From Onchidella celtica (taxonomy: Eukaryota > Mollusca > Gastropoda > Systellommatophora > Onchidiidae), in the NCBI GenBank assembly GCA_963931925.1, contig OZ007570.1:24746408-24810407 (forward strand): DNA of 64,000 nt, written 5' to 3'. Position numbers and translations under genes: made by a program. Every line of letters starts with the position of its first letter. The first letter of the stretch is position 1. Positions 38,640 to 63,587 of the stretch are shown here, in pieces. Under the pieces are notes generated by a model. It was not told the origin of the DNA and did no database searches. It saw only the letters and a program-made list of their open reading frames with translations.

Positions 38640-38662
38640 CGAACACTCTCTTTAAACACCCG

Positions 38663-40255: not shown

Positions 40256-41540
40256 TAACTACAGAGGAATCACACTTCTCTCCATCCCAGGAAAAGTTTT
40301 CAACCAGATTATTCTCAAGCGAATACAGAATGCAACAGACCCAAAACTTCGTGAGGAGCAAGCTGGTTTCAGGAGTAATCGATCAACCACCGACCAGATC
40401 GCCACGCTGAGAATCATAGTAGAGCAGTCGCTAGAGTGGAACTCCCAACTGATAGTGAACTTCCTTGACTACGAGAAGGCCTTTGATAGCATCGATAGAG
40501 AAACACTGTGGAGAATATTGAGACATTATGGAATCCCAGAGAAGATGGTGAACCTTATCAAGAGCATGTACGAGGGGACAAGTTGCAGAGTCGTACACGA
40601 TGGCGAGCTTACTGACAGCTTTGATATCAAGACTGGTGTTAGGCAGGGTTGTTTGCTGTCCCCATTTCTGTTTGTCCTGGTGATTGATTGGCTTATGAAA
40701 GAAACCACCAGTGGAGGAAGAAATGGCATACAATGGACCCCATGGACACAGCTGGACGATCTAGATTTTGCAGATGACTTGGCACTATTGTCGCACACAC
40801 ACGACCAGATGCAAGCAAAGACTACAGCTCTAAACAAAATTTCAGAATCTATTGGATTAAGGATACATCCTGCGAAGTCGAAGGTCCTAAAAATTGTTGC
40901 ACCCCCAAGCGCACAAGTCAGAGTAGGAGATCAACCACTGGAAGATGTAGAGTCCTTCTGCTATCTTGGTAGTATCATTGACAATAAGGGAGGAACAGAG
41001 GCAGAAGTCAAAGCACGAATTGGAAAGGCACAGGCAGCTTTCACGTCCTTAAGCAAGATTTGGAGAACCAAGGATATATCTCTAAAAACAAAGCTGAGGA
41101 TATTCAACTCGAACGTGAAGTCAGTCCTGTTGTATGGATGTGAGACTTGGAATGCATCCCAGGCCTGCATAAAGAGAATCCAAGTTTTCATCAACAGATG
41201 TTTGAGGAAGCTACTTAAGATCAGATGGACAGACAAGGTCAGCAATGAAATTGTATGGAAAAGAACAAGACAGAGCCCAGTCAGAGAGGAAATTGGTAGG
41301 AGGCGATGGAGATGGATCGGCCACACTCTCAGGAGGCCAGGAAACAGCATCACGAAGAAGGTATTGGATTGGAATCCCCAGGGCAAGAGATCAAGAGGAA
41401 GGCCGCGCGGAACGTGGAGAAGAGCCAGAGAAAATGATGTGCAACGAAGCGGAAAGACTTGGAATAATGTAAAGAGACTGGCCCATGATAGAGAGGGATG
41501 GAAAGTGTTTGTTGGTGGCCTATACCCTGATCCAGGGTGA
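40229..41540 (+). CDS. LINE B ORF, reverse transcriptase and C-terminal domain
   Basis: Open for about 437 codons from the insertion point to a TGA at 41538-41540. RT palm motifs are intact: YEKAFDS, FADD. The frame is continuous with about 10 residues of LINE A (from 40197), so a chance fusion ORF exists across the junction. No endonuclease remains. Confidence 0.85.
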
Positions 41541-43400: not shown

Positions 43401-43555
43401 TCACTGGGGGACCACCGGATCACACCCTTGGCTGGCATCATGTACATGTAGTTTGTTACAGGATGCCAGAAGAAGACCCAGGTATGGAGGAGAGGGTTTC
43501 ATAGGGCGAGAGATGTACTCTGGATGGTACTGAACTCCAACATAGTAAGGATGGT
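43401..43555 (-). CDS. CTPS1: CTPS last exon
   Basis: Encodes [20 protein letters not shown] and [10 protein letters not shown], then a divergent tail ending DPVVPQ and TGA (43401-43403). HPE supplies the amidotransferase His and Glu. Acceptor TTGACAG. The Ser-rich tail of vertebrate CTPS1 is mostly absent. Confidence 0.97.
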
Positions 43556-46500
43556 CTGTCAAAAAATAGAAAAAGTCATGGAGTGAATAAATGTCAAATG
43601 TTGAGAACCAAAATGCTTAGAAACAGAAACTTTACTGGTTTATTGCATATAATTTAAAATTAGCAGTAGGGGCCTACTGTATAAACATTTATGGGCAACG
43701 TTTTCATTCATTTCCCACTTGTATATTTTATGGAGGTTTTATTAAGGAGACTGAAAATGATCAATTTACAACAAATTTAAAAAAAAAAAAAAACAAATGC
43801 CGCCCATTCCACTCATGCAATCAAAAGATAAGTGCCTCTGTGCTTCTAAATACTTAAAAAGGCTGAAAGTGCCAATCATCTAAATTCTAATGCAAAAACA
43901 CTGACCAAATAGTAGAGTGTGTGATATTTCGCTTAAGTGTGTGGATTCAGTTCATTGCTGTTTGATTACATCTTCTTCTTCTTCTAGGCGTTGTCTAACC
44001 ACTGCAGGATGTAGCCCTCCGACAATGCTTTCCATTCTCTTCTGTCTGTTGTTTTCTTCATCCACGTTGTTTTTCCTCTCTTTGTAATGTTATCCTTCCA
44101 TCTTCTTCCTGGTCGTCCTCTCGTCCTCTTTCCTGTCCTTGGCTGACATTAAGGGCAGCGTTTTGTGCACCTATTGTCATTCATCCTCCCCACGTGTCCG
44201 GCCCAATTCCACTTTTGTTGTAGCATGAATTCCACTAGATCTTTTAGTTTTGTTTCTTTGCGTATGTCAGCATGGGGGGGGGGGGGGGGGGTCTATCTTG
44301 CAGTCTGATGTTAAGCATTTTTCTTTTCATTGCCCTCTGAGTAGTTTTTAGTTTATTTGGTCATTGTTTGACAATCACATGTAATCGTTGGAAGAATGCA
44401 TTGATTGAATACTTGCTTCATTAGGGACATTGGCAGTTTGGAATCCAGGAATATCTTTCTCTTTTTTCCAAAGCAACTCCATGCTGCTCTTATTCTGGTG
44501 TTTAAATTCAGTTATTTTTGCTGTGTTTCATATTCACTACCTGGCCTAAGTATTTATAATCTATGACCTTTTCGATGGCTTTGTTTTCAATTATAACCTT
44601 TTCTCTTGTCTCGTAGATTGTCATTTTAGTTTTGTCCTTGTGCATCTTCAAGCCGACCTTCTTGCTCTCTTTGTTTAGTATGTTGAGATTGGTTTACATT
44701 TGGTGTACTTCATCTGTGCAGAGTACGATATCGTCTCTGCAAATCTCAAGTCTTGCAGCTCTTCACCATCAATATTTATGCCAGTTTCTAGATGTGACTG
44801 TTTAAATATTTCTTCAGTTGTTGCTGTAAATAATTTTGGCGATATGTGGTCTCCCTGTCCCACTCCTCTTTCTATGGCAAACTTTTCTGATACCGGCACA
44901 TGATTATCGATGTGTATTGTGGCAAAGGCTTCTTTATATATATATATTTTGTAGTCTTTATAGATTTTGTTAATATTGATCTTTCTGAGGGCTTCAAAGA
45001 TTGCACGGTGTTCAACGGAATCGAAGGCTTTTTCGTAGTCGATAGCCCACACACACTGGTAAATCATATTCTTTACTTTTTTCTATTATTTGGTTAAGAG
45101 CCTGTAGGTGGTCTGTTGTGGAGTAACTCTTTCTGAAGCCAGCTTGTTCTCTCGGTTGGTTTTCGTCTAGCACTTTCTCCATTCTATTTTGTAATACTTT
45201 TGTAAAGAGTTTATATGTGTGTGGTAGAAGGCTTATTGGTCTATGATTTCTTATATCCCTTCGGTCTCCTTTTTTATGTAGAATTATGATCTATGTTTCC
45301 TGCCAGCATTCAGGTATTCTCAGCGTGATTAGAATCTCATCAAGTGCTTGTTACCGAACATATTTTACTGTGTGGTGTCCTCCCGTCTGTAATATGTTGC
45401 TTGTCATATTACCATTTCGAGGTGCTTTCTTTTTGTTGATCTTTCTTGAGGTCATTTCTATCTCTTCTTCTGTGAAAGTGGTAGGCCTACTCCATCAGTG
45501 TCGGGGCTTGTTGTAATGGTTGTTTCGGGTGTATCCATTGTTTTCTGGTACAGTGTTTTCTAAAAATCTGTGCAGACATAGGCCTATAGGATTTCTTCTC
45601 TGTCTGTGGTTGTTTCACCAGTCTTTTTAAATATACTTGTGATTTTGTTTCGACCTTCTTGTTTGTTTCTGTTGATCCTTTCCTGCTTTCAATCATTCTT
45701 TTTACCATGTCTTTTCTTTTTCTTCTGTCTCTGTCTCTCCCATTTTCTTCACTGTCTTGTTCAGTTCTGTATATTCGATTTTTTCTTGTCTGTCTGTTCC
45801 TTTTTGTGTAGGGTTTTCCTTTTTTTTTTTGGCTAGCTCTTCTAACATAATCATCTTCTTTCAATTTTCCTTCCTCTGGTTTTTCTTTCAGACCTTGTAA
45901 TTTCATTACTTCTTCTGTCACAATTTTGTTCAGTGTCTCAACGGAGGGGACTTCTTCCTCCAGGGATTCAAATCTGGTTTTCAGCTCCAGCTGGAATGTG
46001 TTCTTATGTGTTTCCAGTTCTTCTATATTCATTTTGAGTGGTTTTCGTCTCTGTATTCTTTTTAATCTCATTAGCTTTCTGTTTATTCTGATTTTTGCTC
46101 TTACCATGCGATGATCTCTTCCAATGTAGTCTGTTGAGATCACCTCACAATTTCTGATGATGTTCTCGTGTGAAGTAATGATGTAATCAATTTGGTTCTT
46201 ATGTTCTCTCTTTGGACTTTCCCGGGTCCAATATCTGTTTTATTACATACATGTACAAAAAATGCTTGGATTTTCAAACAATCCAGTGTCTTGTACAACC
46301 CAAAGTGACGAAAACAAATAAACAAAAAACTACATTACCTTCAAGTTCCATAATTTCCATTCTTTGTCCATCTTCACTGTGGCCAACAAATTTCATACCT
46401 TTCGCTTCCAGATCTTCAACAAATTTTGAGTTCACCTTAAAGGTACACAATAAAAAAATGAGATGGAGGACACAATGCTTGAATACAATTATATTATGAT

Positions 46501-49500
46501 GACAACGAGGCTTACTTTTGTTGTAAATATTTCACACTGTGACTTGCACTGCACTTGACTCAGTAATTGTAGGCCTAATATATGTATTTTATTTTTTTTA
46601 AGCCAACACCTGCTTCGCTTATGAAATTAAGAAATGGAATTTAACAGCACATACACAAGAAAGGTATCCATCTGAGGCAATGAAATAAAATTACTTGATT
46701 CCATGTATTGGAATACTTTTTAGGTGATAAGCAGTCTTTTAAATAGCATGCGCAGTCAGTGTAAGTACTGATCCCCTGTAGCGATAAGAGAAGTATAAAG
46801 TTTTCCTTTCCACAATAAAAAAGCTATTACAGGTTTAGACTCCACATCTAAGGCTCCAAAATCCAGACTCTCACCTCATATCTGTGCCTGTGTCTTTCCT
46901 CAACAACATCACGATTACCATACAGTTGATCTGGAATAACAGGTAAATAAACAAAATATATGTATACTTGTACAGGTAAATAAAAAGGGGATGGGGGAAT
47001 TAGAATGCAGTGAAAATTATTTCAAGTGGAAACCAATGACTAATACATATGCAAATCAAAGTCACAGAGTAAACAAAATTAGCCCCGCAGCCCCCACATC
47101 CCCTCTCATTCAGACTGACTACATGTATGTGGGCCATGTGGACAAACTTGGTACACTGAATATGAAGGAAATAGGCTACTTGAGTACATGCACATGAGTT
47201 GGTGTTATGGTTACCGACAAGTTTATGGTTAATTTGCTGGCTACAATAATGTTTTTACTGGAGAAATGGCTACAGTACAAGTATCATTTTCTGAAAATTT
47301 GGCCACAAAGTGTTGAAAGAAAAAAAAATTGCCCGAAATAGCCCACTACCCTTTTTTTTTTTTTTAAAGATACTGGTAATAAGCATTTCACTGAATATTT
47401 GGCAAAACAAACAATTATTCGTTACTAAGTTTCATCCAACCGACTTACACAGGATACTTTTCTTTGTCTTGAAGATTGTTTTCCTCTTTCCGAGTCTCAT
47501 GGTACCACCTTTCTTTTCTGCGTTGTGTTCAGGCATGTCAATGACCTGGCGGATCATAAAATCCACATTGTTTAAATCACAAACTGCCGACGGACAAAAC
47601 TAGAAATATATATATGTATGATAACAGTTTCGGGTGGCATTTCGATCTCTCTTTCTCCATCTCTCTCTCTCTCTTTTTCTCAGTTTCTCTTTCTCTCGCT
47701 GGTTGGGCCTGAACTCTGGACACTTTATGTGCTGGACAGATGTTTGAAATCTTGGTCCGACCCAGAGGTCAAAATAATGTCATCTCTTATTATTCTGATG
47801 TGTGTCACCCCTTAACCCAACCCCCCACCCTTCAGAATTCCATCTATTGAAATACAGCAATGACAGCCATTGAGGTACAAATGAGATGTTCAGCATACCA
47901 CAGGATGCTCAGTTTCGGGGCCAAGCTCTGTAGAGTTGGCACCTTTCCATTCCAGGACATTCCTAGCAAATTCTACAACTGCGCATTGAAGTCCCAAACA
48001 TACACCTGGATGAGCAAAATTTGAATAAGAACAACTAAGATCATGAAAAAGATCTCACAAAGTGCAAATTCATAAGATTCTTATAATGTATATATATATC
48101 ATAAAGCACTGATAAAGGGGAAAAGGTTCAGAGTGAGGAAACTGCAGGGAGTTATATATTTTGTCATGTAGGTGATGACGGCTCATAGACACAGGGTTAA
48201 ACAGTGTTTTGTCAAAGAAAGCTTTGGTGCTCATTTAGTACACGGTAGTACACAAACAGGATGCCATAGTAATAGTACACGGCCCATTTCACAAATTTAA
48301 ATAATTAATCTTTCCTTTCATTTCACAATGAGTGGTGATTCGCTAACATTATATACAAGTACAACAAGCTTAAGAGTTAATAGGTCCTTCACACTATTAG
48401 TTTCACAGAAATATCAGTTTCACTTCAGCAGTGAACAAATTGAAACAAAAAAGACAGAAAAAGATAAAGAAACCTGTGTGATCACAGAAGAGCTGGGCAT
48501 TATGTCAAAATGTGATATCCCCCACCCCTCCCAAAATTTGTATTTCACAAAGCCCACTGCAAGAAACAAAGAAGAAGAAAACTACATCAAATTCTTAACA
48601 GATGAAAATCAAAGCCACCGCACAAGCTTTCGGTTGTCAAGGACCTTCATCAGGACAAATTACTGGGATATTTGCAACAATTTTTTTTTTTAATTGCCAA
48701 GAAGAATAACTGTCACTCCTTATCTGCATGAACTTAGGCAATTATGAGTGGCAATTCATACTTACTCAACCAGAAAGCAAAAAATGTCAAAGAAAAAAAA
48801 CTTGACACTAACGAGATCAAAATTAAGGAACACAATAACATCTGTTACCCAAGAAAGGAACTTTGTTTGTTCGCGCCCACTGGCAGGCCAAGATTTTTCC
48901 TTCAGTTCCCCTTTCATCAAACCCACCAGGAACAATAACACCACTGCATCAGACAAAGAAGAAAGAAAGAAAAAAAAAACAAATCGTCATATACATGCAT
49001 ATGATTATATTACGGCACAGTAAAGGAAGGAATCTTCCTTAACACATAAACCTTGTAAAAAAAGTCATGTTATACATGTATTTGCAACAAAAAGGGAAAA
49101 AAAAATTTATAAGCGAAATAAATGGAAAGAAGAAATATTTCTCTTAATAATATCCCGAAAAAAAAAAAACAACATAATACACACATAAAATGACCCACAA
49201 TCCCAACTGGTGGAAAAAACCCGACAAAATTTTACAAGAACAAGTCCTGGTGTGAGGTGGGATGAGGTAATTGGGTTGACATGATATTTGCTTTGGAGAT
49301 TTTGCAAAATAATCCTGTAGAATTGGCTTGTCTGGATCACAATGAGAAAGTCGAAATCTCAGTATTACATTCATTTCATCTGTGCGCTCACTTTTTGATC
49401 AGGCTAGCTGCAATCTTAACATTAGTTCGTGAGATGAAGAGATAAAACCAAGTGAAAGAGCTATATTATAAAGGTAAAAAGAACAAACTTTGCTGCTCTC

Positions 49501-52500
49501 AGGTCCTCCCAAGCTTTATTGTAAGATTCTTCGTTGCTTTCTGCCATTGCTGGTTCGAGATCTCCTGCCGCCACCAACTATTAAAATGTGAGAGGATGAA
49601 CGACTTTTTATTTTTAATGTGCTTTCATGGTAGCTCTAGTGCGTGAGTGAGGGACGGCCACTCATAGTAGTTTATGGACACTTGGCCGAGTACCATTAAT
49701 TGGATTATTTCCCTTGTAATACTAGCGCGGGACCCGTTATTCACATCACGGTGAAAAGCGCGCATTTTGATTGGTCAGTTGGAAATGTACCGGGCTTCCA
49801 ACTCTTATATCATGGCTTTAAGTTTCTTACAACTCGCTCCTTCGTTGTTATCCACCGACAGAAAGACGGGAACCCGAATTCATTTTTGAGAGGAGACAAT
49901 ACCCGATCGGTACAAAATAGGTACTCATGATAACGTTTGTTATCAATGGAGATACGTCGTATTAATGGACGAAAGTATCCCGCACAAAATTGTCGAATGT
50001 TGTTAGTCCTGACACTTTGAAAATTTATATTAAAACTATTACCGGGTTTCTGGTATAAGTAGTCAGTTAGAATTTTAGCAGCAAGTTTCTACTTTATAAT
50101 GGTACTAATTTCGTTGTACTTTGATGCACGTGTCCTATTGAAATGATTAATGAGAGGATCTCGGATTTAAAGTAAACCACGAGTTAGACGCATGTTATCC
50201 CCGATAAATCCAACCTGGGTCAAATTTATTCAATTATTGCTGGAGGGGTCGTTAGAGTAATTTCTGCAGTTTACTGGGATACCTAATTGACTTTTGTGTG
50301 CACCCTTTTAACCGTACTGTAAATTCGATTGTGTTAGGACCCTAACCGGTTATGTTGTCGGGCTGGACTCCATGTCCGAGCCTTTCACTTGTGCAACACG
50401 GGCTACGTAATAGCTCTCTCGGACGTCCGCGCGGGCTAATAAATAAGATGCGGTTCGAGTGGTCAAGACACTCCATCATAGACGCAGAGACAGAGCCGAC
50501 GCTTGCCATCGCCACCCCGCCCCATAAGGCATGTAGCGGTAGCACAGGACCCGGAGAAACTTTGGGTAAGTTGGAGACTATTATATTAGAAGTGACTTTA
50601 ATTTGCGCACCCCCCCCCCCCTTTCTTGGATGCCGCGTAGAGAATGCTGATCTACAGAGACCATTATGAGTCCGGCTCAACGGTAATTGCCATTGTCATT
50701 ATTCGTGTAAGATGCGCTTTGCAGTACAGTGTCTTGATATTGTGACTTTATTGTCAAAGTTAACGTTTGCGGTGCTAGATGATAATGATGGCTCGCTAAC
50801 CAAGCTATCACGATTTGCTTGTGTGCCTATATATAGTGTATGTGTAGCATTGCCTTGTTGTGGTAGGCAGTGAGGATTTCCTGACATGTTGATGTGGATG
50901 GCTTATGTTACAGCGAGCGGCACTATACGCTTGATTGTATTACGGGTATTTGTGTACCTTGCCAGTACCACTATGCTATAGAGAGCAGTGTGATTGTGAT
51001 TGCGTGTTTAGTGTTTAAGATGTGTAATTAATTACAGGTATTGGGGATGTATAATATTAGTTGGGCCTCACATGGGTGAGCCCCAGGATTGTTCTATGTG
51101 CGGCGGTGGATGAACAATGTTTCAGTGAGTCTACACATGTTGCAATGAGTCTCGCCGACATATATATATATATCATGTGCATGCATTATAGTTATCCAGA
51201 TGTATTATGCTTCTATGAGTTTCGTAAGTGTGTGAAGGACAGTTTCATTTTAAGGAATGTACACATTACTTTATGTATCTAGTGGTGTGTCATACACATG
51301 TTAGCCTGGCGGCATAGCTCCGCGGCTAAGGTCAAAGGGCATGACCCTTCAGTATCGATTGGGAAGGGAAGTAACCAATACAATAGCCCTGGGGCGGGTT
51401 AGTACTAATAATGGGAGTGGGCCTATGAGGATGGCCTGCATTGGGATGCAGCGTCTGTGTTATGGACGGTCAGTGGGCCATGTTGGCCACTGCGTTATTA
51501 AATGGAATGGCCACTCTGGATGTGTTGTACACCGGCTCAGTGGAGCGAAACTATTGTGTTCTTGCCCCTTCATTTGTTATGTCCTTCATACTTTGATTAG
51601 TACATTAATTAGTTTATGTTGCCAGTGTACTAGGAAACTCCTTGTGTATATGATATAGCCACTTGTAGTTGTTATTCATTAACCTTAGCGCTATTTTATT
51701 CCATGCATCCATATCCAGTTGGTTATTGCTTAAATTCTATATTACATGTATGTTGTTGTTGTTTGATTTAATACTTAATACTATTACTATGTATGTCCAC
51801 CATTGATTGCCTGATTAATGTTGTCATTATATCCTAATCATATTTTTGTCTTTTTCTCTTGTTCCAGCTTATGGCTGGTTGGGCTTCTTTTTATGGGCTT
51901 CTTCTTTTTTTTGGGCTTCTTTTCTGGGTTTCTCTTCTTTTGTTGGCTTTGTTTGGGCCGCGATACCTTTGTTAGGCTTTTTTTGAATAAATAAGATTGC
52001 CAGCAGAACCCTGTGTTTGTTAGTCCTGTGTATCCTTAAGGGAGTTACTATTGAACCCACGCAGTAACCACATTACCCACTCGTAGTTCATCCAACATTT
52101 TCTGGTGTCAGAAGTGGGATACACAGAAGGGTTAGTTTGTAGTGTAGAGAACCCAGCCATGGAAATTTTTAGTTTGAAGCCCAGCCGGCCAGCCAACCCC
52201 TGCCCCACCCCATAGGAACCATGGAGCCACGAAGACCAACGCCCTCCAACGTCAACTCAAGATTCAGGACCTGTATCCCAGTCCTGTGTACACCACCCAT
52301 CCCACTGCAGTCAACAGGGACCCAACAGGGACCCGTTGCGGGTATTTCATCCCGCAATCTACACGTATCCGCAACATCCGCCCCCACAGCCTGCGTCGAC
52401 CAGTGTCTGGTACTCCCAGCCCACCACCCTTGCCAGCCACCTCCAGCCCAACCAGACCCTCAACATGGGTTGAGAACTTTACAGCCCCTACCTCCTGTGC

Positions 52501-55500
52501 AGCGGTCCAGCTGCCCCCCACGTCCAGCTGCCCCCACCGACAACCCCAGAGATTAGACCTATGACTCTTATTAGTGATTGACATTAGACATTGACTGTGA
52601 GTGCAGAAAGAGCAGGGGAGCGCACCCATCAAGATCCCCCTAGTTTCCATTAGGCCAGAAGACAGACCGACGATCAAGTGAGCCCCGCCTCCAGATTTTA
52701 AGTTAGAGAGTATGCCCATGTTGGCTTTCTCCACAGCTTAGTTACGATGACTTTTAATGCCTATGTTGACCTTACCTTTTTCATTGCACTAGTGCCCTTA
52801 TAGCATATTGTCTTTTTTTGTACTGTTCGATCCTACGTTAACCCTGATAGTGGTCTGGGACCACCGTTGCAGGTCTGGGACCTGTTGTTTTGTCCATATG
52901 ATGTAATTTACTACAGCCAGAGCTGAGACTGTTGTGTACATCTTCAGGATGCCAGTAGTAACTTAGCCGGTTCACGCCACCTGTTAGTAGTTATAAAGAG
53001 GATGGACCATTGTTGTACTTCGGTTCACTGTGTGTAATTTGCAATTGTTCTACTCTAAGTGATGGTATCATAGCCCCTTAGAGTTTGATTGTACCTTCAG
53101 TGGTCTTTTGTAAACCTTTGAATTGATGTATGTGTCACGTAAGGGACTACGTGACTTAGCAGGGGAGAATGTGAGAGGATGAACGACTTTTTATTTTTAA
53201 TGTGCTTTCATGGTAGCTCTAGTGCGTGAGTGAGGGACGGCCACTCATAGTAGTTTATGGACACTTGGCCGAGTACCATTAATTGGATTATTTCCCTTGT
53301 AATACTAGCGCGGGACCCGTTATTCACATCACGGTGAAAAGCGCGCATTTTGATTGGTCAGTTGGAAATGTACCGGGCTTCCAACTCTTATATCATGGCT
53401 TTAAGTTTCTTACAACTCGCTCCTTCGTTGTTATCCACCGACAGAAAGACGGGAACCCGAATTCATTTTTGAGAGGAGACAATACCCGATCGGTACAAAA
53501 TAGGTACTCATGATAACGTTTGTTATCAATGGAGATACGTCGTATTAATGGACGAAAGTATCCCGCACAAAATTGTCGAATGTTGTTAGTCCTGACACTT
53601 TGAAAATTTATATTAAAACTATTACCGGGTTTCTGGTATAAGTAGTCAGTTAGAATTTTAGCAGCAAGTTTCTACTTTATAATGGTACTAATTTCGTTGT
53701 ACTTTGATGCACGTGTCCTATTGAAATGATTAATGAGAGGATCTCGGATTTAAAGTAAACCACGAGTTAGACGCATGTTATCCCCGATAAATCCAACCTG
53801 GGTCAAATTTATTCAATTATTGCTGGAGGGGTCGTTAGAGTAATTTCTGCAGTTTACTGGGATACCTAATTGACTTTTGTGTGCACCCTTTTAACCGTAC
53901 TGTAAATTCGATTGTGTTAGGACCCTAACCGGTTATGTTGTCGGGCTGGACTCCATGTCCGAGCCTTTCACTTGTGCAACACGGGCTACGTAATAGCTCT
54001 CTCGGACGTCCGCGCGGGCTAATAAATAAGATGCGGTTCGAGTGGTCAAGACACTCCATCATAGACGCAGAGACAGAGCCGACGCTTGCCATCGCCACCC
54101 CGCCCCATAAGGCATGTAGCGGTAGCACAGGACCCGGAGAAACTTTGGGTAAGTTGGAGACTATTATATTAGAAGTGACTTTAATTTGCGCACCCCCCCC
54201 CCCCCCTTTCTTGGATGCCGCGTAGAGAATGCTGATCTACAGAGACCATTATGAGTCCGGCTCAACGGTAATTGCCATTGTCATTATTCGTGTAAGATGC
54301 GCTTTGCAGTACAGTGTCTTGATATTGTGACTTTATTGTCAAAGTTAACGTTTGCGGTGCTAGATGATAATGATGGCTCGCTAACCAAGCTATCACGATT
54401 TGCTTGTGTGCCTATATATAGTGTATGTGTAGCATTGCCTTGTTGTGGTAGGCAGTGAGGATTTCCTGACATGTTGATGTGGATGGCTTATGTTACAGCG
54501 AGCGGCACTATACGCTTGATTGTATTACGGGTATTTGTGTACCTTGCCAGTACCACTATGCTATAGAGAGCAGTGTGATTGTGATTGCGTGTTTAGTGTT
54601 TAAGATGTGTAATTAATTACAGGTATTGGGGATGTATAATATTAGTTGGGCCTCACATGGGTGAGCCCCAGGATTGTTCTATGTGCGGCGGTGGATGAAC
54701 AATGTTTCAGTGAGTCTACACATGTTGCAATGAGTCTCGCCGACATATATATATATATCATGTGCATGCATTATAGTTATCCAGATGTATTATGCTTCTA
54801 TGAGTTTCGTAAGTGTGTGAAGGACAGTTTCATTTTAAGGAATGTACACATTACTTTATGTATCTAGTGGTGTGTCATACACATGTTAGCCTGGCGGCAT
54901 AGCTCCGCGGCTAAGGTCAAAGGGCATGACCCTTCAGTATCGATTGGGAAGGGAAGTAACCAATACAATAGCCCTGGGGCGGGTTAGTACTAATAATGGG
55001 AGTGGGCCTATGAGGATGGCCTGCATTGGGATGCAGCGTCTGTGTTATGGACGGTCAGTGGGCCATGTTGGCCACTGCGTTATTAAATGGAATGGCCACT
55101 CTGGATGTGTTGTACACCGGCTCAGTGGAGCGAAACTATTGTGTTCTTGCCCCTTCATTTGTTATGTCCTTCATACTTTGATTAGTACATTAATTAGTTT
55201 ATGTTGCCAGTGTACTAGGAAACTCCTTGTGTATATGATATAGCCACTTGTAGTTGTTATTCATTAACCTTAGCGCTATTTTATTCCATGCATCCATATC
55301 CAGTTGGTTATTGCTTAAATTCTATATTACATGTATGTTGTTGTTGTTTGATTTAATACTTAATACTATTACTATGTATGTCCACCATTGATTGCCTGAT
55401 TAATGTTGTCATTATATCCTAATCATATTTTTGTCTTTTTCTCTTGTTCCAGCTTATGGCTGGTTGGGCTTCTTTTTATGGGCTTCTTCTTTTTTTTGGG

Positions 55501-58500
55501 CTTCTTTTCTGGGTTTCTCTTCTTTTGTTGGCTTTGTTTGGGCCGCGATACCTTTGTTAGGCTTTTTTTGAATAAATAAGATTGCCAGCAGAACCCTGTG
55601 TTTGTTAGTCCTGTGTATCCTTAAGGGAGTTACTATTGAACCCACGCAGTAACCACATTACCCACTCGTAGTTCATCCAACAAAAAGAAATACATGTAAT
55701 TTACAGTAATTAGTAACAAGTTATATTGTAGGCCCTAATTAATATTTGAACCAACATATAAACAGAATAAACATAACGGAAATGAAAAAAAAAAAAAAAA
55801 AGAAATACATTAAAAATTCCAAAGATTTGACATAAACAAAGGACTGTTAAAAAAAAAAAGGATTTTAACAATGATAATAATAGGATAATTACATACGGTA
55901 AAAGAGTGTGAAAAAACATTGAAGAGAGTGGAAACTGTGACAAAGGTATAGGAGGAATAGGCCTACTGGTCAAAGGCCAAGGAAATGTGAGAGGATGAAC
56001 GATTTTAATTTTATTTTAAAGAAAGTGCTTTCATTGTAACGCTAGTGCGTGAGTAAGGTACAGCTACTCATAGAGGTTTATATATAGGCACTTGTCTGGT
56101 TGCCATTACTTGAATTACTTTCCTTGTGTACTGTAGCACGGTTACCCGTTATTCACATCACTGTGAGGAAGAGTGCGTTTTGATTGGTCAATTGGAAATG
56201 GTGACCAGTGGGTATCCAGCTTTTGTATCATGTCTGACACATGCGTCTTCTTTCTTGTGAACCCTCAGAAAGACAGAAACTCGGGTTCATTTTTCAGAGT
56301 AGGCAGTACCCTTCCCGTACACTATAGGTGCTCATGATAACGCTTGTTACTAACGGAGATACGTCGTATTGATGGGCTAAAGTATTCTGCACGAGTTTGT
56401 CAAATTTTGCTGATCTCGTCACCTTTGTAAAATTATATTAAAACTACTACAGAGTTTCTGGAAAAAGTAATCGAATTTTATTTGTATTGATACCAATTTT
56501 ATAATACTTCGATGCACGTGTCCTAGTGAGATCGTCAATAATAGAGTCAAGTAAACAATGAGCTAGATGCGTGTTATCACCGATAAATCCAACCTGGGTC
56601 AAACTTATTAAATTGTAGCTCTATAGGACGATAGAGTAACTTCTGCAGTTTACCGGGATTTCTGTTTGATTTCTGTGCGTACAGTATTAGCCGCGCTAGG
56701 AATTTTTTTGTGTCGGTACACCGACCAATTATTTAGGTCTAGGCCCTACGCCAGTGCATTCAACTTGTCGACCACTGGGCCTGCTCTCTCCCACGTCCGA
56801 GCTGGCACAATAAATACGATGCCAGATTGGGTAGTTATGACACTCCCATCAAAGACACCGAGACAAGAGATGACCGCCGCCAGTGAACCCAGACCAGTAG
56901 TACGGTAGCTCAGAGGCTTGCCGCGGCTTGCCGCCACGCTCCGCCCAAGGCATGACACGGTAACACAAGAACAGAGAAACTTTGGGTCATGGCTGGTTGG
57001 GCTTTTTTTTTTTCCTTCTATGGTTCCTTTTTTGAATAAATAAGAGCATCCACGCAGAACCTGTGTTTCTTGTGTATCCCTAAGAAAGACTGAACCCCCT
57101 ACTCACGATAGTCACCCATTCGTCATACAGAAAGAAAGAAAGAAGGAAAGAAAGACAGACTCTGAAATAAGGTCTTACCTTAAGGTCAAGTTTGCGGCCA
57201 ACTGCAGGTGCAACTGAAGCATGTTGCAAAGCTTTCAGGACAGATGCATAAGAATCAGGATTTTTGGTGTATTTGCCCACCAGTGCAATCGTGATTTCTT
57301 CTTTTAAATTGTCATGTCTGTGTAAATATCCAGACAAAATAAACAAATGAGAATAATTTATTTCAAAGTGCTTTTTCTTTTTTCCCTTGGTTTTTCAATT
57401 AATCTTATGAGTACTGTAATGTTCAAACAAAAGTAAAGCAATGCAAAGAATTAGAAAAATTCTCTTGTGAATGTGTGTGCACGTGTTATTAAACAAAAAA
57501 ACAACAACCCAAAAACTAGTCATAATTTGAATGGACAGGCAAATGCATTGATATTTTCCTTTTTTATACAGCAAGGACTATTTACATTTTTGCATCACTG
57601 TCTTGCCTTCACCTCTTACGGTTTGTTTTGAGTCGGCCTGTGAAAATAAGAGGTAAAAAATAGGTACCTAATTTATTTATTTATTTATTTAGATATTTAA
57701 TTATTTATTTGGTTTAATCTATAAGCATGTAGATAAACAGTCCAATGAAAGGGTTGCCTGAAATGAAAAACAGGACCCAAATTAATATCAAAACTCCAAC
57801 AGTCTTCTACCTATCTGCCAAGTCATTCCATTTAGAGATGAGTCGTTCAGCTTCATCACGACTGTCAGTCTTCAACTGGAGACGCTGAATAAGATAACTG
57901 TCTACACCTTGAGAATGCAGCAAGTAAGGGATTCTGTAGACACAGGTGACGTCTTGAACACTGTATACCTATGGGATCAAAAGGAAAAAAGGAGAATTAT
58001 ATGCACTAATTGAGATGCCTGGTATTGCTCAGGATGAATCTGTAGGCATTATTTTCAATTCTGGTCAATTATATTGCATTGACTTGAACTTCCGTATTCC
58101 TTTAAGTTTGTTTATTTGTGTGTTGTATGTTTACTTTTTGTCGATTTTTCAGGTACAATCTTATTGCATGCATCTCTCTTTCACATCAATGTGTCACATA
58201 ACCAGCCAGCAAATGAGGTGGCTATTTTCTTGAAATGGCAACAAGCTGCACAGTGAGCAGTTTGATTTTTGGACAAACAGTATTCAGCGTCATGAGGGAA
58301 TAATCTAATAATAAATGTGGTTTGGAAAAAGTAGGGCTCAGCTTTGAAAAAATATCCTTGCTGAACATAATACAAAATAGTATATTGTATATACCAATAA
58401 TTATTTTCTGTGTCCATTGCAAACTGCATTGTTTTGAAGGAATTCACGTAAAAACCACTTGTATCTAACTATTGCGGTTATCTCAAATTTCTTGGTGAGG

Positions 58501-61500
58501 TTTTGCAATTCACATTAAATTTATACTATACAGTATATTATTATGTCATATAATAGTTGTACTTATGAAGAAGCCAGAGGGAATAACTGAATGTAAATGG
58601 TGTTTGTTCTCTCAGAAATCTTCATAAATCATGGCACCCCGCCACCATTTGAAAAAGGTGACGTGCACATATCAATCTTATGGTGTATTTAATCTATGTG
58701 ATTATGACATGTTTCACGGTTGTAAACAGTAGGAGATAATCGTTGTCGTCTTAGTAAAAGGTTGTGCATGTATTTTCTTTGTTACTTCCCCTGAATGTTT
58801 GCAACATAGGAGAGAGAAGGAGAGTCATTTATTCAAAGCCATGGTGGGGAGGGGAGGGGGTGTTCACCAAGACAATTTGTGTGCATGTATGTTCGCTCTC
58901 AGTCTGCCATCTCTCTCTCAGGTACGCTTATATTATATATGTTTCTTACGGTGCCTTTGTGTGTGTGTGAGAGAGAGAAAGACAAGGTGTGGGGGAGACA
59001 GAGTGAGAAAAAGAGAGAGTGCGTGAAAGAGAAAGAGACAGATCATGGGAGAGAGACTGAGAGAGAAAATAAGAGAGTGGGGAAGATATGCTCAGAGAGG
59101 GCAGACAAAGAGAGAGAGAGAGAGAGAGATGGGGGGACTGGCACCATATGGCATTTCTTAAATACAGGACACTGGCTACAAGAAGGTTAAAGCTGAAAAA
59201 CAAGAAAAATTGGTTCCTGGCAGATGTCTTACCTGTTCTGGTTCTACTTGACCAAAAAGTGAAATTTTGTCCCGCGCTGCTCGCACTAGTGGTCTGACAC
59301 TCCGACACACAATCTAAATATGGAATGATAGAATTATGTAACTCAACGTGTAGATCCAGCTACTCCAGTTTTCATCACTTTAAATAGTTTAAAGGTGGAA
59401 AATATAATACAATGTAGTTGTCAAGGCAAAAATCTGTCACCAAGCCTGCTTTTATTTTTAATCTTTGTTGGAGAACAGAGCACCGGGGTAATACGTCCGG
59501 GCAGAATGGAAGGAAAACAACCTAATTATAAATTTGAACTGAGGGTACCGCAGCTTTGCCAGTCCTTGGGATTTTCCCAAAGATCTTGGGATTTTAGGAG
59601 TTACCTTAATTGGGATCTTCTCATTTTTTACAAGATCTTGGGATTATTCAGGCTATTGTATACTTTGCTATTATTTCTATGTAAAAAAAAAAAAAAAACC
59701 AACCCACAAAATTGCCCATCCACGTTCTCACACTACTGATAATGATGGTGTTCGTCCATCGCAGGTGATGAGGACCACTGACATCCTTCTTTGATGGGGT
59801 TGGGACTGGGTGTGTCCGGAGATGGCTGGTGAGTCCGATCCGGGCACGGAAGTGTTTCCCACACACTGGGCAGGCGTATGGGGGAGGGGGGGGGGAGGCT
59901 GCGGTTGATGTGCTTGCCGCTCGCTCTTTGCGCTGGTGTCGCTTTCTTTCAGCCTCTGCTGTCCGTTTCTCCTCGGCTGTCTTGGTGCCCTTGCTGATCA
60001 GTCCGCGCCAGGTGGAGCGATCCAGCGTTGCTCACTCCCAGGTCGTGTGGTCTATATAGAAATCTACAGTCTTCAGGGAGACTTTCAGGTTGTCTTTAAA
60101 GCGCTTTCGTTGACCAATATGACAGCGCTTGCCTGTGGACAGCTCCTCAAAGAGCAGCTGCTTCGGCATGTGATTGTGTGGCATCCTGAAGACGTGGCCA
60201 GTCCATCTTACTTGGTGTTTAATCAGAATTGTGTGGATGTTGGGCATGTTGGCCGTGGCCAAGACTTCAGTGTCGGGGATCTTGTCTTGCCACTTGATTC
60301 TCAGGATTTTGCGCAGTGAGGACAGGTGGAAGTGGTTCAGGCTTTGTGCGTGCCGTCTGTACACTGTCCAGGTTTCACTTGCATACTCGAGTGTTGGCAG
60401 CACAACAGCGCGATAGACCTTCACAATACGATTTGCGACTTTAAAGGTGATGTGAATAAAGCCAAATGGGCATAAGGAACAGTTTGAGATTCCCCTCGTG
60501 AGAGGCTCTTTCGCGTGGTCTGCGAGATAATCACTGCATTTTTTACACGGGATTCTTGGAATTTTGGAAAATCTTCACCGGCAACGCTGGGGTACAGACA
60601 GAACAACATCAGTTTTTTCCAATTAAGGGTCTGACTAAAAGGCAGTTCAAAATACAGTCAAGTAAAGGAGGAATAATAATTATGTGAGATTTTATCTACA
60701 GAGCTCAGTTTATTTATTAAGTATAAATATTAACGGGCTCAACTAACTGTGTCATAGTTACCATGTCTGGAGAAATTCCATGACTTCTAAGCTCGCTGAC
60801 ACTGGACTGTGTCGGTTTCGTTTTCTGTTCACCATTTGCCTGTAGCTGAAGGATAATACACGTTCATAATTTATTCAAAGCTGATAGAAAAAGGAACGGA
60901 CTATTCGGGCTGCATACCCAAAATACTCACGATCGGCATGTTTTGTGATAAAACTTTTTGTGTGAAGAAATTTATATCCGTCTAATATGAAAGTCAACAT
61001 CCCCTATTTTCGCCAAATTTCTCGCTCATCCAGAAGCAATAAATAACTAAATTAGAATAATACGCATCAAAGCAAACCGACAGAAATATAGTGGATCGCA
61101 TACCGTCAACATTTCGCCCCAACACGGCATTATAGCTGGACGTGTGACATAAATTTTACTAAGATTCCATGCTATATTATGTTACTTCACATGTTATGCC
61201 TGCTATTGAATTAGGATATATTCATGCAATGATGCGTAAAATGTGTATGACATGTATGCACCTTGGAATGCTCTGTAAAAATGAATTTCTCCTCATGGGG
61301 TGATAAAATATAAAATAATAATAATCTAAAAAAAAAAAAAAATGTCTTAACTTGAAATCCACATCTGAAAAAGGGCATTTCGCCAACAAAATGATTATTG
61401 TGCCCCCGGTGAGACACACACATCTACACTGATCTGTACACTCACCCAAGAAAAAAATGAAAAAATCACTGCCCAGGTAGAACTCAGTTTGGGCACATGG

Positions 61501-63587
61501 CCCAAGGAGTCAATGAAAAAAAACGTCTTTTTTTTTTCTTCCCAAAATATACATGTACCATATTATATAATACAATTACAAAAGGTTCTCAAACTCCCCC
61601 CGCCCCAAAAGCAAAGACAGTGCATGCATATTGTCACGAGTGGAGTGAGCGATAGTTAATAATTACGGGGGGAAAGGAGGAGAGTAAAATTAACGCACGT
61701 AGACAAGTAAGTTAAGCGTGCATGTTGTGAGTGGTGGGGGGTCTGAATGAGGCGAAAGCGCTGTATTACTATCACTGCAAGTTAGAAGGTCCTACTGAAC
61801 GGACGCTAGTAAGAGCCCAGCGGGCGAACATAAGGGGAGCAGTCGGAAGACGGATGGGAGTGGTTTTTCCAGTGATGACTGGTAGGTAGAACGTTGATTG
61901 ATAATTATGATTGATGTATTATATTATATTCGTCTATTACCATGATGTAAATAAGTATATGTGAGGAATGTGGAAGTCCTTGATATTGGATATAGCAATG
62001 TGCGCCATGAGCGATAGATGAAAGTGAGTTCATGGATTTGTAGCACGAGTGAGTATTGTGTACTCCGATGGAGGTGTGTTACCGTAAGATGTGTGGTGAG
62101 TGAAGGTGAACTATTGTGTGTACGCTTCATGGGTTGTAAGGAGAGGTGGAGTGAATAGAAATGGTAGGGTATTATACCAATGTAATGTTATTCTTGTAGG
62201 TGTCGAGGACGGGCCGAAGAGCCACCTCGGTGAGCACGGGGGATAGGCCAGCATAGGGCCGGAGGCCACACATAGGCCAGAAGTGAGGCTGTCGGTGCAG
62301 GACAGTAGAGGCACATAAAGTCGTGGCAGTCAGGCCACGGACAGGGACGTAGATATGAGCGTGAATGTGATAATGTACTATTGCCATGTTGATGGGCTAG
62401 TGAACTGATAATGTACTATTGCCATGTTGATGGGCTATTGAAATGATAATGTGTTATTGCCCTGCGGAGGTGCTAGTGGAATGCTAAGGTGTATGACAAT
62501 AGGAAGGTGATATTGAGAGACTGCGGTGCCAGTGAATTATTAATGTGCTATTAAGACCCTGAGGGGAGAGGCTGAGGCCGAAGTGCCTTTAGGAAGTAAC
62601 TACCGGGTTGTGGATCTGAGGGAAGAGTGCATGTGAGAATAAGGCCGTTGTACGGCAGTTAATAATATAATGTATGTAATTGCGCTATTATCTGTATGAT
62701 TATGTTTAAATAAATGTGTGAGTCTGATGGGTTGTTCTGTTAAGTGTTAAACTTGTTTGTTCGTGATTGTTGTCCTGTCATAAATTATTACATCTCCCAG
62801 TCTGGGATTTGTGACACATATCAGGAACGAAACTGAAAGATAGTTGAACACAAAACTTTCCGAGAACTCGTTGAAACAAAAATTAACCCTTGTGTTGAAC
62901 ATGTTTCGTTCACCTAACAGGCTGCTCTAAGGTTTTGTGTGACATAGTAACGATTAACTCCTGTTATGTAAATAAAAGTTTTTGGCTGGTTTAAAATGCA
63001 AATCAGCTGTTTACAAAATTTTCCAACGAAACAAAATAAACCTAGGCCTATACACATGTTAGAACCGAACTTACTCCAAACCAGTTTCTCAAAAGGGAGG
63101 GGAAACAATGCTGAAACCAGGTGAAGAGTTGCATAGTCAGTTTCTCTTTGTAAACAAAACCACACTGTACTGTTACTTGAAATTGTTTCAGCCTTGTATG
63201 TTGTCGTCGACAGATTTGTCTCTCAGTTTTATGACCTGTACTTGTTTTTGACCTAATCTCTTCCATTAACGCTCTTCGTACCAACTTTTTTGCAATATGG
63301 TTAAATAGGCCTGCATATTCCTTCGATCTGTTTGAAAAATCATTTTTTTGTTTTCGGAATACGGAATTTTCAAAGAAGTCATAATTTATCCATGTGAGCA
63401 CTGTTGCAACTTTTACCAGCGTGTAGAAGCTTATTACCTGTACTTTTAATTAACTAAAGTGGCACATTACCTCCGGTATAAGACTGACGTGGACATAACA
63501 AATGTTCTCTGGTTTGACCTTGAACTGGAACTGTCGTAAAGCTTCAACGAAATGCGGTCCTTCTATGTCCCCAATGGTTCCGCCAAG
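43401..63587 (-). CDS. CTPS1: CTP synthase, 12 C-terminal coding exons (5' end outside window)
   Basis: Makes CTP from UTP, ATP and glutamine, the last step of de novo pyrimidine synthesis; cytosolic, filament-forming in animals (family knowledge). Exons in transcript order: 63587-63471, 60845-60762, 59313-59233, 57968-57811, 57317-57179, 49577-49489, 48943-48849, 48005-47899, 47545-47449, 46930-46875, 46435-46339, 43555-43401. They total 1275 nt (424 codons plus stop) and all phases agree. Human CTPS1 is 591 residues, so about 145 N-terminal residues are beyond the right edge. Present are the end of the synthetase domain ([24 protein letters not shown]), the linker, ALVGKYTK, the PGGF oxyanion strand, the GVCLG nucleophile Cys and the QYHPE His. 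CTPS1 versus CTPS2 cannot be told apart; invertebrates usually have one gene. Confidence 0.96.
43556..46338 (-). other. CTPS intron with an RTE-type LINE
   Basis: 2.8-kb intron, mostly LINE C (43974-46235), inserted in the same orientation as CTPS. A poly-A run lies at about 43779-43793 and a 19-20 base G run at 44274-44293. Confidence 0.75.
43974..46235 (-). mobile_element. LINE C: RTE-type non-LTR retrotransposon, 5'-truncated and broken
   Basis: Read on -: the end of the endonuclease ([18 protein letters not shown], then [18 protein letters not shown] around 46140), a Lys/Arg-rich linker (45487-46143), and an RT with [36 protein letters not shown] and LRFAE in place of the usual LRFADD (44675-45067). 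The C-terminal part with a GRPGRRW-like block lies near 44110 and the element ends in a GAA repeat tail (43974-43986). The RT closely resembles RTE elements described from Lepidoptera. Frameshifts, stops and the altered FADD show it is dead. Confidence 0.88.
46339..46435 (-). CDS. CTPS1: CTPS exon, GATase domain
   Basis: Encodes [20 protein letters not shown] then [12 protein letters not shown]; human has [20 protein letters not shown] and EGERMEIVELED. Donor GAAG/GTAATG, phase 1 out. Confidence 0.96.
46436..46874 (-). other. CTPS intron, no feature seen
   Basis: 439-nt intron, AT-rich, nothing recognised. Confidence 0.65.
46875..46930 (-). CDS. CTPS1: CTPS exon, GATase domain
   Basis: 56-nt exon encoding [17 protein letters not shown]; human has LYGDADYLEERHRHRFE. 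The RHRHR block lies in the inter-domain region of the family. Acceptor TTCCAG, donor GAG/GTGAGA. Confidence 0.96.
46931..47448 (-). other. CTPS intron, no feature seen
   Basis: 518-nt intron with an A run and T run near 47322-47366. Nothing else recognised. Confidence 0.6.
47449..47545 (-). CDS. CTPS1: CTPS exon, GATase domain
   Basis: Encodes [20 protein letters not shown] followed by [12 protein letters not shown]; human has [20 protein letters not shown]. Phase 0 in, phase 1 out. Confidence 0.96.
47546..47898 (-). other. CTPS intron with CT-rich microsatellite
   Basis: 353-nt intron. A TCTC-type microsatellite lies at about 47645-47700. No other feature. Confidence 0.65.
47899..48005 (-). 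CDS. CTPS1: CTPS exon with catalytic cysteine
   Basis: Encodes [20 protein letters not shown] and [15 protein letters not shown]. The Cys of GVCLGLQ is the glutaminase nucleophile. Human: [20 protein letters not shown]. Acceptor CATCCAG, donor CTGTG/GTATGC. Confidence 0.97.
48006..48848 (-). other. CTPS intron, no feature seen
   Basis: 843-nt intron. No repeat ends seen. A sequence at about 48612-48654 (CAAAGCCACCGCACAAGCTT...) is not obviously coding on either strand. Confidence 0.55.
48849..48943 (-). CDS. CTPS1: CTPS exon with PGGF oxyanion strand
   Basis: Encodes [20 protein letters not shown] then [11 protein letters not shown]. Human: [20 protein letters not shown] and AWARNQKKPFLG. 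95 nt, phases fit both neighbours; excellent pyrimidine tract before the TGCAG acceptor, donor TTGG/GTAACA. The family's GFG is GFD here. Confidence 0.95.
48944..49488 (-). other. CTPS intron, no feature seen
   Basis: 545-nt intron with A-rich runs on the + strand (T-rich in the transcript). No element ends. Confidence 0.65.
49489..49577 (-). CDS. CTPS1: CTPS exon with LTR element at its 3' splice site
   Basis: Encodes [20 protein letters not shown] then KAWEDLRAA, aligning with human DSADLEP....YHEAWQKLCSA. Phase 0 in; ends AA in phase 2, joined to T at 48943 to give Asn-Gly-Val. The acceptor is TTTTAATAG; only nine transcript bases (TTTTAATAG) separate the exon from the LTR element at 49587. 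The divergent sequence alone would be weak evidence, but the phase and length agreement is exact. Confidence 0.88.
49587..52097 (+). repeat. 5' long terminal repeat
   Basis: 2511 bp. TG...CA ends with inverted tips (GGATGAAC / GTTCATCC). An AATAAA-type signal lies near its right end (GAATAAATAAG, about 51985). Short ORFs inside repeat identically in the 3' LTR and should not be taken as host genes. Confidence 0.93.
52098..53169 (+). other. Internal region of the LTR element
   Basis: 1072 bp without recognisable gag, protease, RT or integrase. There is a Pro/Gln-rich possible reading near 52160-52560. It ends in a purine tract AGGGGAGAA (53161-53169) that would prime plus-strand synthesis. 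Confidence 0.8.
52103..52120 (+). promoter_or_regulatory. tRNA primer binding site
   Basis: TGGTGTCAGAAGTGGGAT lies five bases after the 5' LTR. It is complementary to the 3' end (including CCA) of animal tRNA-Leu of the CAA type, as I recall that sequence. Leu primers are used by some invertebrate Gypsy-type elements. Confidence 0.85.
53170..55682 (+). repeat. 3' long terminal repeat
   Basis: 2513 bp, essentially identical to the 5' LTR apart from two extra C in one homopolymer. Confidence 0.93.
55986..57129 (+). mobile_element. Older solo LTR related to the 49587 element
   Basis: 1144 bp, starts TGTGAGAGGATGAACGA and ends CATACA, flanked by GAAA on both sides (55982-55985 and 57130-57133). 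It aligns with the young LTR at both halves but is clearly diverged and lacks a large central part. It represents an older or different subfamily, reduced to one LTR. Confidence 0.85.
57179..57317 (-). CDS. CTPS1: CTPS exon, start of GATase domain
   Basis: Encodes [20 protein letters not shown] and [20 protein letters not shown] then RKLDLK. Human has [25 protein letters not shown] (quoted in part). Phase 2 in, phase 0 out; acceptor TTACACAG, donor TTAAG/GTAAGA. Confidence 0.97.
57318..57810 (-). other. CTPS intron, no feature seen
   Basis: 493-nt intron with a TTTA repeat around 57670-57712. Nothing else. Confidence 0.6.
57811..57968 (-). CDS. CTPS1: CTPS exon, end of synthetase domain and linker
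   Basis: Encodes [32 protein letters not shown] and [11 protein letters not shown]. Human has [20 protein letters not shown] and KWKEMADR. Acceptor CCATAG, donor GATAG/GTAGAA, phase 2 out. Confidence 0.95.
57969..59232 (-). other. CTPS intron with GA-rich microsatellite
   Basis: 1.26-kb intron. A long purine tract (GAGA-type with spacers) runs from about 58965 to 59132. No mobile-element ends seen. Confidence 0.65.
59233..59313 (-). CDS. CTPS1: CTPS exon, synthetase domain
   Basis: 27 codons: [20 protein letters not shown] then GQVEPEQ; human [20 protein letters not shown] and CHVEPEQ. Phase 0 at both ends. Confidence 0.94.
59314..60761 (-). other. CTPS intron with a LINE fragment
   Basis: 1.45-kb intron. 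LINE D (59700-60425) fills the centre. A run of A (about 59682-59698) marks its 3' side on the + strand. Confidence 0.7.
59700..60425 (-). mobile_element. LINE D: 3' end of a non-LTR retrotransposon with C2H2 finger
   Basis: On - it reads [52 protein letters not shown] and, after a break near 60032, a C-terminal [20 protein letters not shown] plus RTH zinc finger. This is the post-RT region of an endonuclease/RT-type LINE. A C-terminal C2H2 finger is known in some of these families. It is 5'-truncated; RT and endonuclease are absent. Confidence 0.82.
60762..60845 (-). CDS. CTPS1: CTPS exon, synthetase domain
   Basis: 28 codons: [20 protein letters not shown] then SHGISPDM; human [20 protein letters not shown] and GLGLSPDL. 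The KTKPTQ segment binds UTP/CTP in the family. Acceptor at TTCAG before CTACAG keeps the four-residue spacing of human. Confidence 0.96.
61632..62816 (+). mobile_element. Solo LTR, unrelated to the 49587 family
   Basis: 1185 bp, starts TGTCACGAGTGG and ends GGGATTTGTGACA (tips TGTCAC/GTGACA inverted), with CATAT on both sides (61627-61631, 62817-62821). It has an AATAAA signal near 62708-62713. A 5-bp duplication and TG..CA ends fit a Gypsy-like LTR. No internal region is present. Confidence 0.82.
62365..62460 (+). repeat. Tandem ~40-bp units inside the solo LTR
   Basis: Direct repeats of GATAATGTACTATTGCCATG with GTTGATGGGCTA follow each other twice, then a third diverged unit. Likely an LTR promoter-type repeat. 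Confidence 0.7.
63471..63587 (-). CDS. CTPS1: CTPS exon, synthetase domain (first in window)
   Basis: 39 codons: [39 protein letters not shown]; human [20 protein letters not shown] and FCNIHVSLVPQ. The GGT.GDIE motif is part of the UTP/metal site. Acceptor TTGACCAG, donor CGGAG/GTAATG. Upstream exons lie beyond the window. Confidence 0.97.

Follow-up and report, generated by a model that had tools for sequence, protein, structure and literature searches.

The question raised by this locus is how a coding exon of a CTP synthase (CTPS) gene can still be recognized when an LTR retrotransposon has come to lie immediately before it. The window, by which we mean the whole 64-kb stretch of Onchidella celtica DNA that was analyzed, holds the 3' part of the gene on the reverse strand (43401..63587), the 5' part lying beyond it. 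Twelve exons, A to L, join in frame from 63587 to 43401 up to the stop codon (424 codons plus stop); their edges were set by hand for GT-AG introns and a kept reading frame. The product, whose N-terminal part falls outside the window, matched in a single frame the CTP synthase domain PF06418 (2.1e-41) and the class-I glutamine amidotransferase domain PF00117 (1.6e-36), and was aligned with human CTPS1 (7mip_C) at an E-value of 2.3e-165. The exon in question, the 89-nt coding exon F (49489..49577, reverse strand), is entered in phase 0 and ends on two bases of a codon. It follows exon E (57179..57317, reverse strand), which has a strong donor, AAG/gtaaga. In the alignment with human CTPS1 the 57179/49577 join is ungapped; the nearest gap, of two residues, falls within exon E, some nine residues before the join. 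Since both the frame and the ungapped protein alignment demand the joining of exons E and F, this join is required in a functional mRNA; skipping of exon F would shift the frame and lead to a stop after 8 foreign residues.

The intron between these exons was shown to contain a full-length LTR retrotransposon of 6,096 bp (49587..55682, forward strand), apparently non-coding and antisense to CTPS. Its 5' LTR (2,511 bp; 49587..52097, forward strand) and 3' LTR (2,513 bp; 53170..55682, forward strand) are direct repeats with TGT...ACA ends, and hence with the TG...CA termini of LTRs. As the earlier note had recognized, the two are near-identical, differing by 0 mismatches and one 2-nt gap that reflects the length of a C run at about 50622. 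Copies of AAAA stand at 49583..49586, adjoining exon F, and at 55683..55686, a size within the 4-6 bp of target-site duplications of LTR retrotransposons; an LTR pair of this kind would not arise by chance, whereas an A-only 4-bp duplicate by itself could. A primer-binding-site-like stretch, TGGTGTCAGAAGTGGGAT (52103..52120, forward strand), starts 5 nt past the 5' LTR and presumably resembles the 3' end of tRNA-Leu, as a candidate match. ARAGORN found no tRNA genes in the window, hence no local tRNA for comparison, and a text search with 17 letters of the stretch matched no published text. Directly before the 3' LTR lies a polypurine-tract-like stretch, AGCAGGGGAGAA (53158..53169, forward strand), with one C in 12. 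The interior measures 1,072 bp, and the longest stop-to-stop frame touching it is 157 aa. No gag or pol frames were found: six of the longer open frames were scanned against Pfam (three touching the interior and three in the LTR), and none rose above the cut-off, the best E-values of 0.15 and 0.36 both falling below it. Judging from these sequence features, the element is a non-autonomous LTR retrotransposon, a young insertion standing antisense in the CTPS intron. The 17-nt LTR tip also matched two viral contigs, but the sequence that these have in common with the window amounts to no more than 18 bases, and they were thus rejected as relatives of the element. An Rfam scan of the window gave no match at the gathering threshold.

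Between the element start at 49587 and the exon start at 49577, nine intron bases remain (49586-49578), reading TTTTAATAG in transcript sense, in exact agreement with the positions and spacing given by the earlier note. With one AAAA retained, the reconstructed empty site reads ATTTCTTTTAATAG; the letters proposed before, ATTTCTTTTTAATAG, were off by one base, and the correct version has one T fewer. A branch-like CTAAT at -33 of the empty site, probably the native branch point, now lies 6.1 kb off together with the native pyrimidine tract; the displaced stretch with this tract and the branch-like TTACTAAT is at 55687..55725 (reverse strand). In the present 3' splice-site region (49578..49606, reverse strand), the host TTTTAATAG follows the LTR tip GTTCATCCTCTCACA. 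The reversed tip provides TTCATCCTCTCACA; the region carries a branch-like TTCAT with its A at -20, and the stretch from TTCAT to the acceptor is free of AG. The native branch and pyrimidine signals are thus separated from the AG by the element, as in other 3' splice sites disrupted by transposable elements, and, because the element sits nine bases before exon F, part of the start signal of this exon is now element-derived. The idea that a young LTR element parts the acceptor AG from its old pyrimidine tract, with the reversed LTR tip as a pyrimidine-containing replacement, was therefore borne out. LTRs of 2.5 kb with almost the same sequence pose a difficulty for assembly, which speaks for an assembly error at 49587, with the element belonging elsewhere. 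However, the AAAA duplicates match at both outer ends, and the empty site is a coherent one with a branch-like motif and a pyrimidine run; we hold such an error to be extremely improbable.

The explanation that we favor, and consider only just probable as a whole, starts from what the sequence shows: the non-autonomous element inserted recently in antisense orientation, at an AAAA cut that leaves nine bases to exon F, whereby the branch-like site and pyrimidine tract of the host were pushed 6.1 kb upstream and the reversed 5' tip of the element took their place. The old AG at 49579-49578 would most likely still be the acceptor, with the branch point and tract furnished by the LTR tip. Since this hybrid acceptor would work less well, a fraction of the transcripts may skip exon F, with a frameshift, or retain the intron.

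The splice-site scores bear on this directly. The generic matrices, which underlie all scores except the gene-trained ones, consist of approximate consensus frequencies; the gene-trained acceptor matrix was built on 11 sites of the CTPS gene. On the generic matrix, the exon F acceptor scores 7.40 bits in the empty and 5.81 bits in the filled state, as compared with 4.69-13.80 bits for the 11 other CTPS acceptors, two of which lie under 5.81 (B, 4.69; E, 5.61). On the gene-trained matrix it scores 0.99 empty and -0.47 filled, the latter being last of 12 (next, 0.46), and 31% of 1,163 decoy AGs score at least as well as the filled acceptor. Both changes are consistent with the earlier suggestion that splicing may survive or weaken. 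The favored explanation is supported by the filled generic score, which lies inside the range of the gene's acceptors, and by TTCAT at -20; the last place on the gene-trained matrix stands against it, as does the exon F donor AAA/gtttgt, the weakest of the 11 CTPS donors (2.09 bits). If the LTR tip were a full substitute, splicing would be unaffected and the insertion neutral. The filled acceptor does score above the native acceptors B and E, but the drop on both matrices and the weak exon F donor render this reading improbable.

The weak donor of exon F and the last place of its acceptor on the gene-trained matrix, together with the youth of the LTRs, which would fit a rare allele, would also suit a loss of function. 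In that case most transcripts would lack exon F, their shifted frame would lead to mRNA decay, and the assembly would represent a rare or heterozygous haplotype. Reported cases point in this direction. Three of 14 Alu insertions in NF1 fell in pyrimidine tracts and caused skipping of the downstream exons (PMC3219598), which also counts against the favored explanation; polymorphic Alus altering splicing promoted skipping at most of five loci (PMC6326789), and an insertion less than 20 bp from an acceptor was judged very likely harmful (PMC3088655). Meanwhile, a further Alu located in that upstream zone left exon usage unchanged (PMC6326789), and the replacement acceptor of exon F lies within the generic range of the gene's real acceptors. 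We thus regard a loss-of-function allele as possible, though unlikely.

As a replacement acceptor context, the LTR tip is only modestly special. Among the 9,575 window 60-mers ending in CA, 15.6% score as well as the tip, and 4.9% match its score and also carry a branch-like motif. The branch-like TTCAT is weak proof, because 6 of the 11 other CTPS acceptors have no such motif at -15 to -60 and 18.7% of the CA-ending 60-mers would yield one; on the former ground, a yUnAy motif alone was rejected as proof of a branch point.

Transcripts might instead be diverted, namely into an LTR pseudo-exon, to a decoy acceptor at 55843, or to early polyadenylation at the junction. The sites of the best LTR-derived pseudo-exon candidate (52594-52492) and the acceptor at 55843 do outscore the acceptor and donor of exon F itself. 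In addition, an AATAAA (49612-49607) arrives with the LTR, 20 nt before its end, and is followed by CA and G/T-rich host sequence in a poly(A)-site-like layout (49587..49612, reverse strand); neither AATAAA nor ATTAAA occurs on the transcript strand of the intron remnant 55981-55687. However, the same test was passed by 11 of 119 hexamers on the CTPS strand (2 of the 11 being the junction's own, one inside exon F) and by 19 of 104 on the other strand. Furthermore, the element's transcript strand offers just 2 pseudo-exon pairs, where the tiles average 11.0, and young antisense human ERVs were not seen to participate in splicing (PMC1794541). Diversion is, in our estimation, very improbable.

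The scarcity of rival acceptors on the element's transcript strand, mostly driven by composition, lends support to the favored explanation of a retained but weakened AG. There are 4 in 6,096 bp, whereas 30 overlapping tiles average 27.5 and each exceeds 4. Dinucleotide shuffles of this strand gave 7.3 acceptors (sd 2.5), 15 of 100 being at or below 4; the purine-rich composition thus accounts for most of the deficit, and the notion of a specially acceptor-free strand was rejected. The sense strand of the element has 10 acceptors, whereas its 100 shuffles average 27.1 and none of them has 10 or fewer.

A second, older member of the element's family, a solo LTR (1,144 bp; 55986..57129, forward strand), is found in the same intron, whose unique sequence amounts to about 353 nt. 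This solo LTR is flanked by the target-site duplication GAAA (55982-55985 and 57130-57133) and lies 49 bases from the intron's donor. Besides this copy and the two LTRs, blastn with E up to 1e-4 found no further family copies in the 64-kb window. The solo LTR is about 74% identical to the young LTR over the first 0.7 kb, a divergence from which it was probably inserted before the young element. Its presence suggests that LTR-to-solo conversion occurs in this family. Between both elements lies a remnant of the original intron (55687..55981, reverse strand), including the strong acceptor-like site at 55843. Both insertions are antisense, an orientation that introns of human and mouse tolerate better than the sense one (PMC3088655, PMC1794541), and this is in line with the favored explanation. 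The two elements agree in all 17 nt of the LTR tip, and that of the solo LTR scores 5.81 on the generic matrix. This identity, despite the divergence noted above, supports a broader reading in which the backward-read LTR end, constant for integration, would carry a branch point and pyrimidine tract (TTCATCCTCTCACA) along with the element, and antisense copies could rebuild a working acceptor directly beside an AG; we consider this reading quite doubtful.

The CTPS insertion exemplifies a type of event that is already known, a transposable element at a 3' splice site, and does so cleanly enough to serve as a test case. A limited text search for CTP synthase, intron and retrotransposon insertion matched no paper, from which absence from print is not claimed. 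The case concerns a core metabolic gene and an element young enough to segregate, and would thus allow an allele-specific measure of a foreign against a native branch point and tract. LTR-LTR recombination would not restore the acceptor, since a solo LTR would retain the same tip there.

Among known systems, elements of the LARD kind are non-autonomous LTR elements with long LTRs, PBS-like and PPT-like stretches and no coding interior. The CTPS element, in whose interior no coding was found, is like them in all these respects but differs in that this interior, at 1,072 bp, is shorter than one LTR. With the transposable elements in "hazardous zones" (PMC3088655), it shares the arrangement of a full-length antisense LTR element less than 20 bp from an acceptor whose signals are displaced. 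That work dealt with element populations in human and mouse, where the zone around exons, up to a distance of 5 kb (human) or 2 kb (mouse), is depleted of full-length LTR elements, whereas the CTPS insertion is a single case. The Alu insertions of PMC3219598 and PMC6326789 likewise hit the 3' splice-site region, and they usually lower the inclusion of the exon. They are short SINEs with measured splicing, in contrast to the 6.1-kb LTR element described here. Finally, introners, as described in PMC9860276, carry a splice site at their ends, and the two systems have in common that an element terminus takes part in splice-site formation while the host supplies the remainder. Introners make new introns, whereas the CTPS intron existed before the insertion; its AG and donor are still those of the host, and the replacement is confined to what lies upstream of the AG.

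Domain matches and protein alignment placed the CTP synthase gene (CTPS) on the minus strand, where 12 exons from 63587 to 43401 were joined in frame with a stop at the end. All of the introns (11/11) were of the GT-AG type, the exon edges having been picked by us so that GT-AG, frame and protein alignment were kept. The 424-residue product encoded in the window, which comprises the CTP synthase and glutamine amidotransferase domains, aligned with residues 147-559 of human CTPS1 (E 2.3e-165), and the window contained no CTPS part for the first 146 residues (human protein numbering). The join between exons E and F (57179/49577) was gapless against human CTPS1 KLEIK|YIDSTDLEP (14 window residues aligned), and thus the start of exon F is backed at the codon level, beyond the AG alone; a two-residue alignment gap lies inside exon E, approximately nine residues upstream of the join. 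On a matrix of approximate consensus frequencies, the donor of the 89-nt exon F, AAA|gtttgt at 49489, was the weakest of the 11 CTPS donors in the window (2.09 vs 3.38-11.10), and it is backed by phase, AA|T forming an Asn codon with exon G.

The intron between exons E and F spans 7,601 nt, most of which derives from a single LTR family that inserted twice, each time antisense to CTPS; subtraction of both insertions left approximately 353 nt. The young element (49587-55682) is flanked at both ends by AAAA, and its LTRs of 2,511 and 2,513 bp showed 0 substitutions, the sole difference being two extra C in a C-run. Assuming rates of 1e-8 to 1.5e-9 per site and year, 0 substitutions in 2,511 sites gave a 95% upper bound on its age of approximately 60,000 to 400,000 years. 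The 5' LTR is followed, at a distance of 5 nt, by a PBS-like stretch, and the 3' LTR is immediately preceded by a polypurine-like one. Since none of six open frames (three touching the 1,072-bp interior and three in the LTR) gave a Pfam match above the cut-off, and the frames that touch the interior reach at most 157 aa, the element appears to be non-autonomous. Its sense strand held 10 acceptor-like sites, as compared with 27.1 in dinucleotide shuffles (0/100 shuffles as low). The older insertion (55986-57129) is a solo LTR bracketed by GAAA target-site duplicates, and 49 nt separate its end from exon E. Its first 0.7 kb was 74% identical to the young LTR, and approximately 40 bases near the other end matched as well; between these two stretches, sequence comparison detected no similarity.

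The young element left nine bases of host sequence, TTTTAATAG, before exon F. Joining of the flanks with one AAAA kept gave the empty site GTTACTAATTACTGTAAATTACATGTATTTCTTTTAATAG|TTG, which contains a run of 8 pyrimidines as well as, at -33, a branch-like CTAAT; the empty-site sequence proposed in the earlier note contained one T too many. The filled site, GTCGTTCATCCTCTCACATTTTAATAG|TTG, has a branch-like TTCAT at -20, with no AG from there to the acceptor. On a generic consensus matrix of approximate frequencies, the exon F acceptor fell from 7.40 bits (empty) to 5.81 (filled). The 11 other CTPS acceptors scored 4.69 to 13.80, two of them (B and E) below 5.81, and of the 1,163 remaining AGs in the gene region (transcript strand), 4.7% reached 5.81 and 2.2% reached 7.40. 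When a matrix was instead trained on the remaining 11 CTPS acceptors, the score fell from 0.99 to -0.47, the lowest of the 12, and 31% and 21% of decoys were at or above the filled and empty sites, respectively. Both matrices agree on a drop, but are at odds over whether the filled acceptor is still ordinary. With its weak donor and lowered acceptor, exon F is a good candidate for partial skipping.

To gauge the LTR tip, the element's 5' end read backwards, the nine host bases were kept and the remainder was swapped for other 60-mers. Among 9,575 window 60-mers ending in CA, 15.6% scored at least 5.81, 18.7% had a branch-like motif and 4.9% had both; the corresponding values for 20,000 random 60-mers were 24.3%, 17.0% and 7.0%. 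The opposite LTR end, in the opposite orientation, scored 4.12 without a branch-like motif. The tip beats most alternatives, but is not exceptional. The old and young copies share its first 17 nt, as would be expected of an integration end.

As to alternative transcripts, skipping of exon F was computed to shift the frame such that 8 foreign residues precede a stop in exon G, retention of the E-F intron would add 32 residues before a stop, and use of a decoy acceptor at 55843 would add 34 residues. This decoy, predicted in the original intron remnant, resembles a very strong acceptor, with a generic-matrix score of 13.73. Across the whole intron, four pseudo-exon pairs passed the thresholds. 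Two of them (52594-52492 and 52980-52776) belong to the young element, a low count against a tile mean of 11.0 per 6,096 bp; the other two lie in the older solo LTR. With the insertion also comes an AATAAA that lies 20 nt before the end of the element; the host sequence after it is G/T-rich, which makes a poly(A)-like layout. A scan of the original intron remnant found no such hexamer. This layout is a weak pointer to a possible poly(A) site, because 11/119 hexamers on this strand (including the junction's two) and 19/104 on the other passed the same test.

Further domain matches were also observed in the window. Two overlapping plus-strand open frames at 38618-41540 both matched reverse transcriptase (PF00078) and may represent one retroelement inserted in another. 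A minus-strand frame at 59648-60031, inside a CTPS intron, had a C2H2 zinc-finger match slightly under the cut-off and is perhaps a retroelement remnant. At 31018-31977 there was a match to a Mutator-like transposase (PF20700), and at 25778-26164 one to the DNA-binding domain of a Tc5-type transposase (PF03221).

In human and mouse, transposable elements (TEs) are reported to be scarcer than expected near exons; elements closer than 20 bp to an exon tend to be on its donor side, and those this close to an acceptor are considered very likely harmful (PMC3088655). Antisense elements are described as better tolerated, and young antisense human ERVs are reported not to have been observed participating in splicing (PMC1794541). 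In NF1, 3/14 Alu insertions struck pyrimidine tracts, with skipping of the downstream exons (PMC3219598). For polymorphic Alus at most 100 bp from exons subject to alternative use, five loci (21.7% of the loci assayed) showed altered splicing, in most cases as increased skipping, and another Alu in the same upstream zone was reported to be without effect (PMC6326789). Introners illustrate that element ends can bear a splice site (PMC9860276). Based on these published TE, Alu and introner cases, the CTPS insertion belongs to a kind already known, of which it is a clean and young example in a core metabolic gene.
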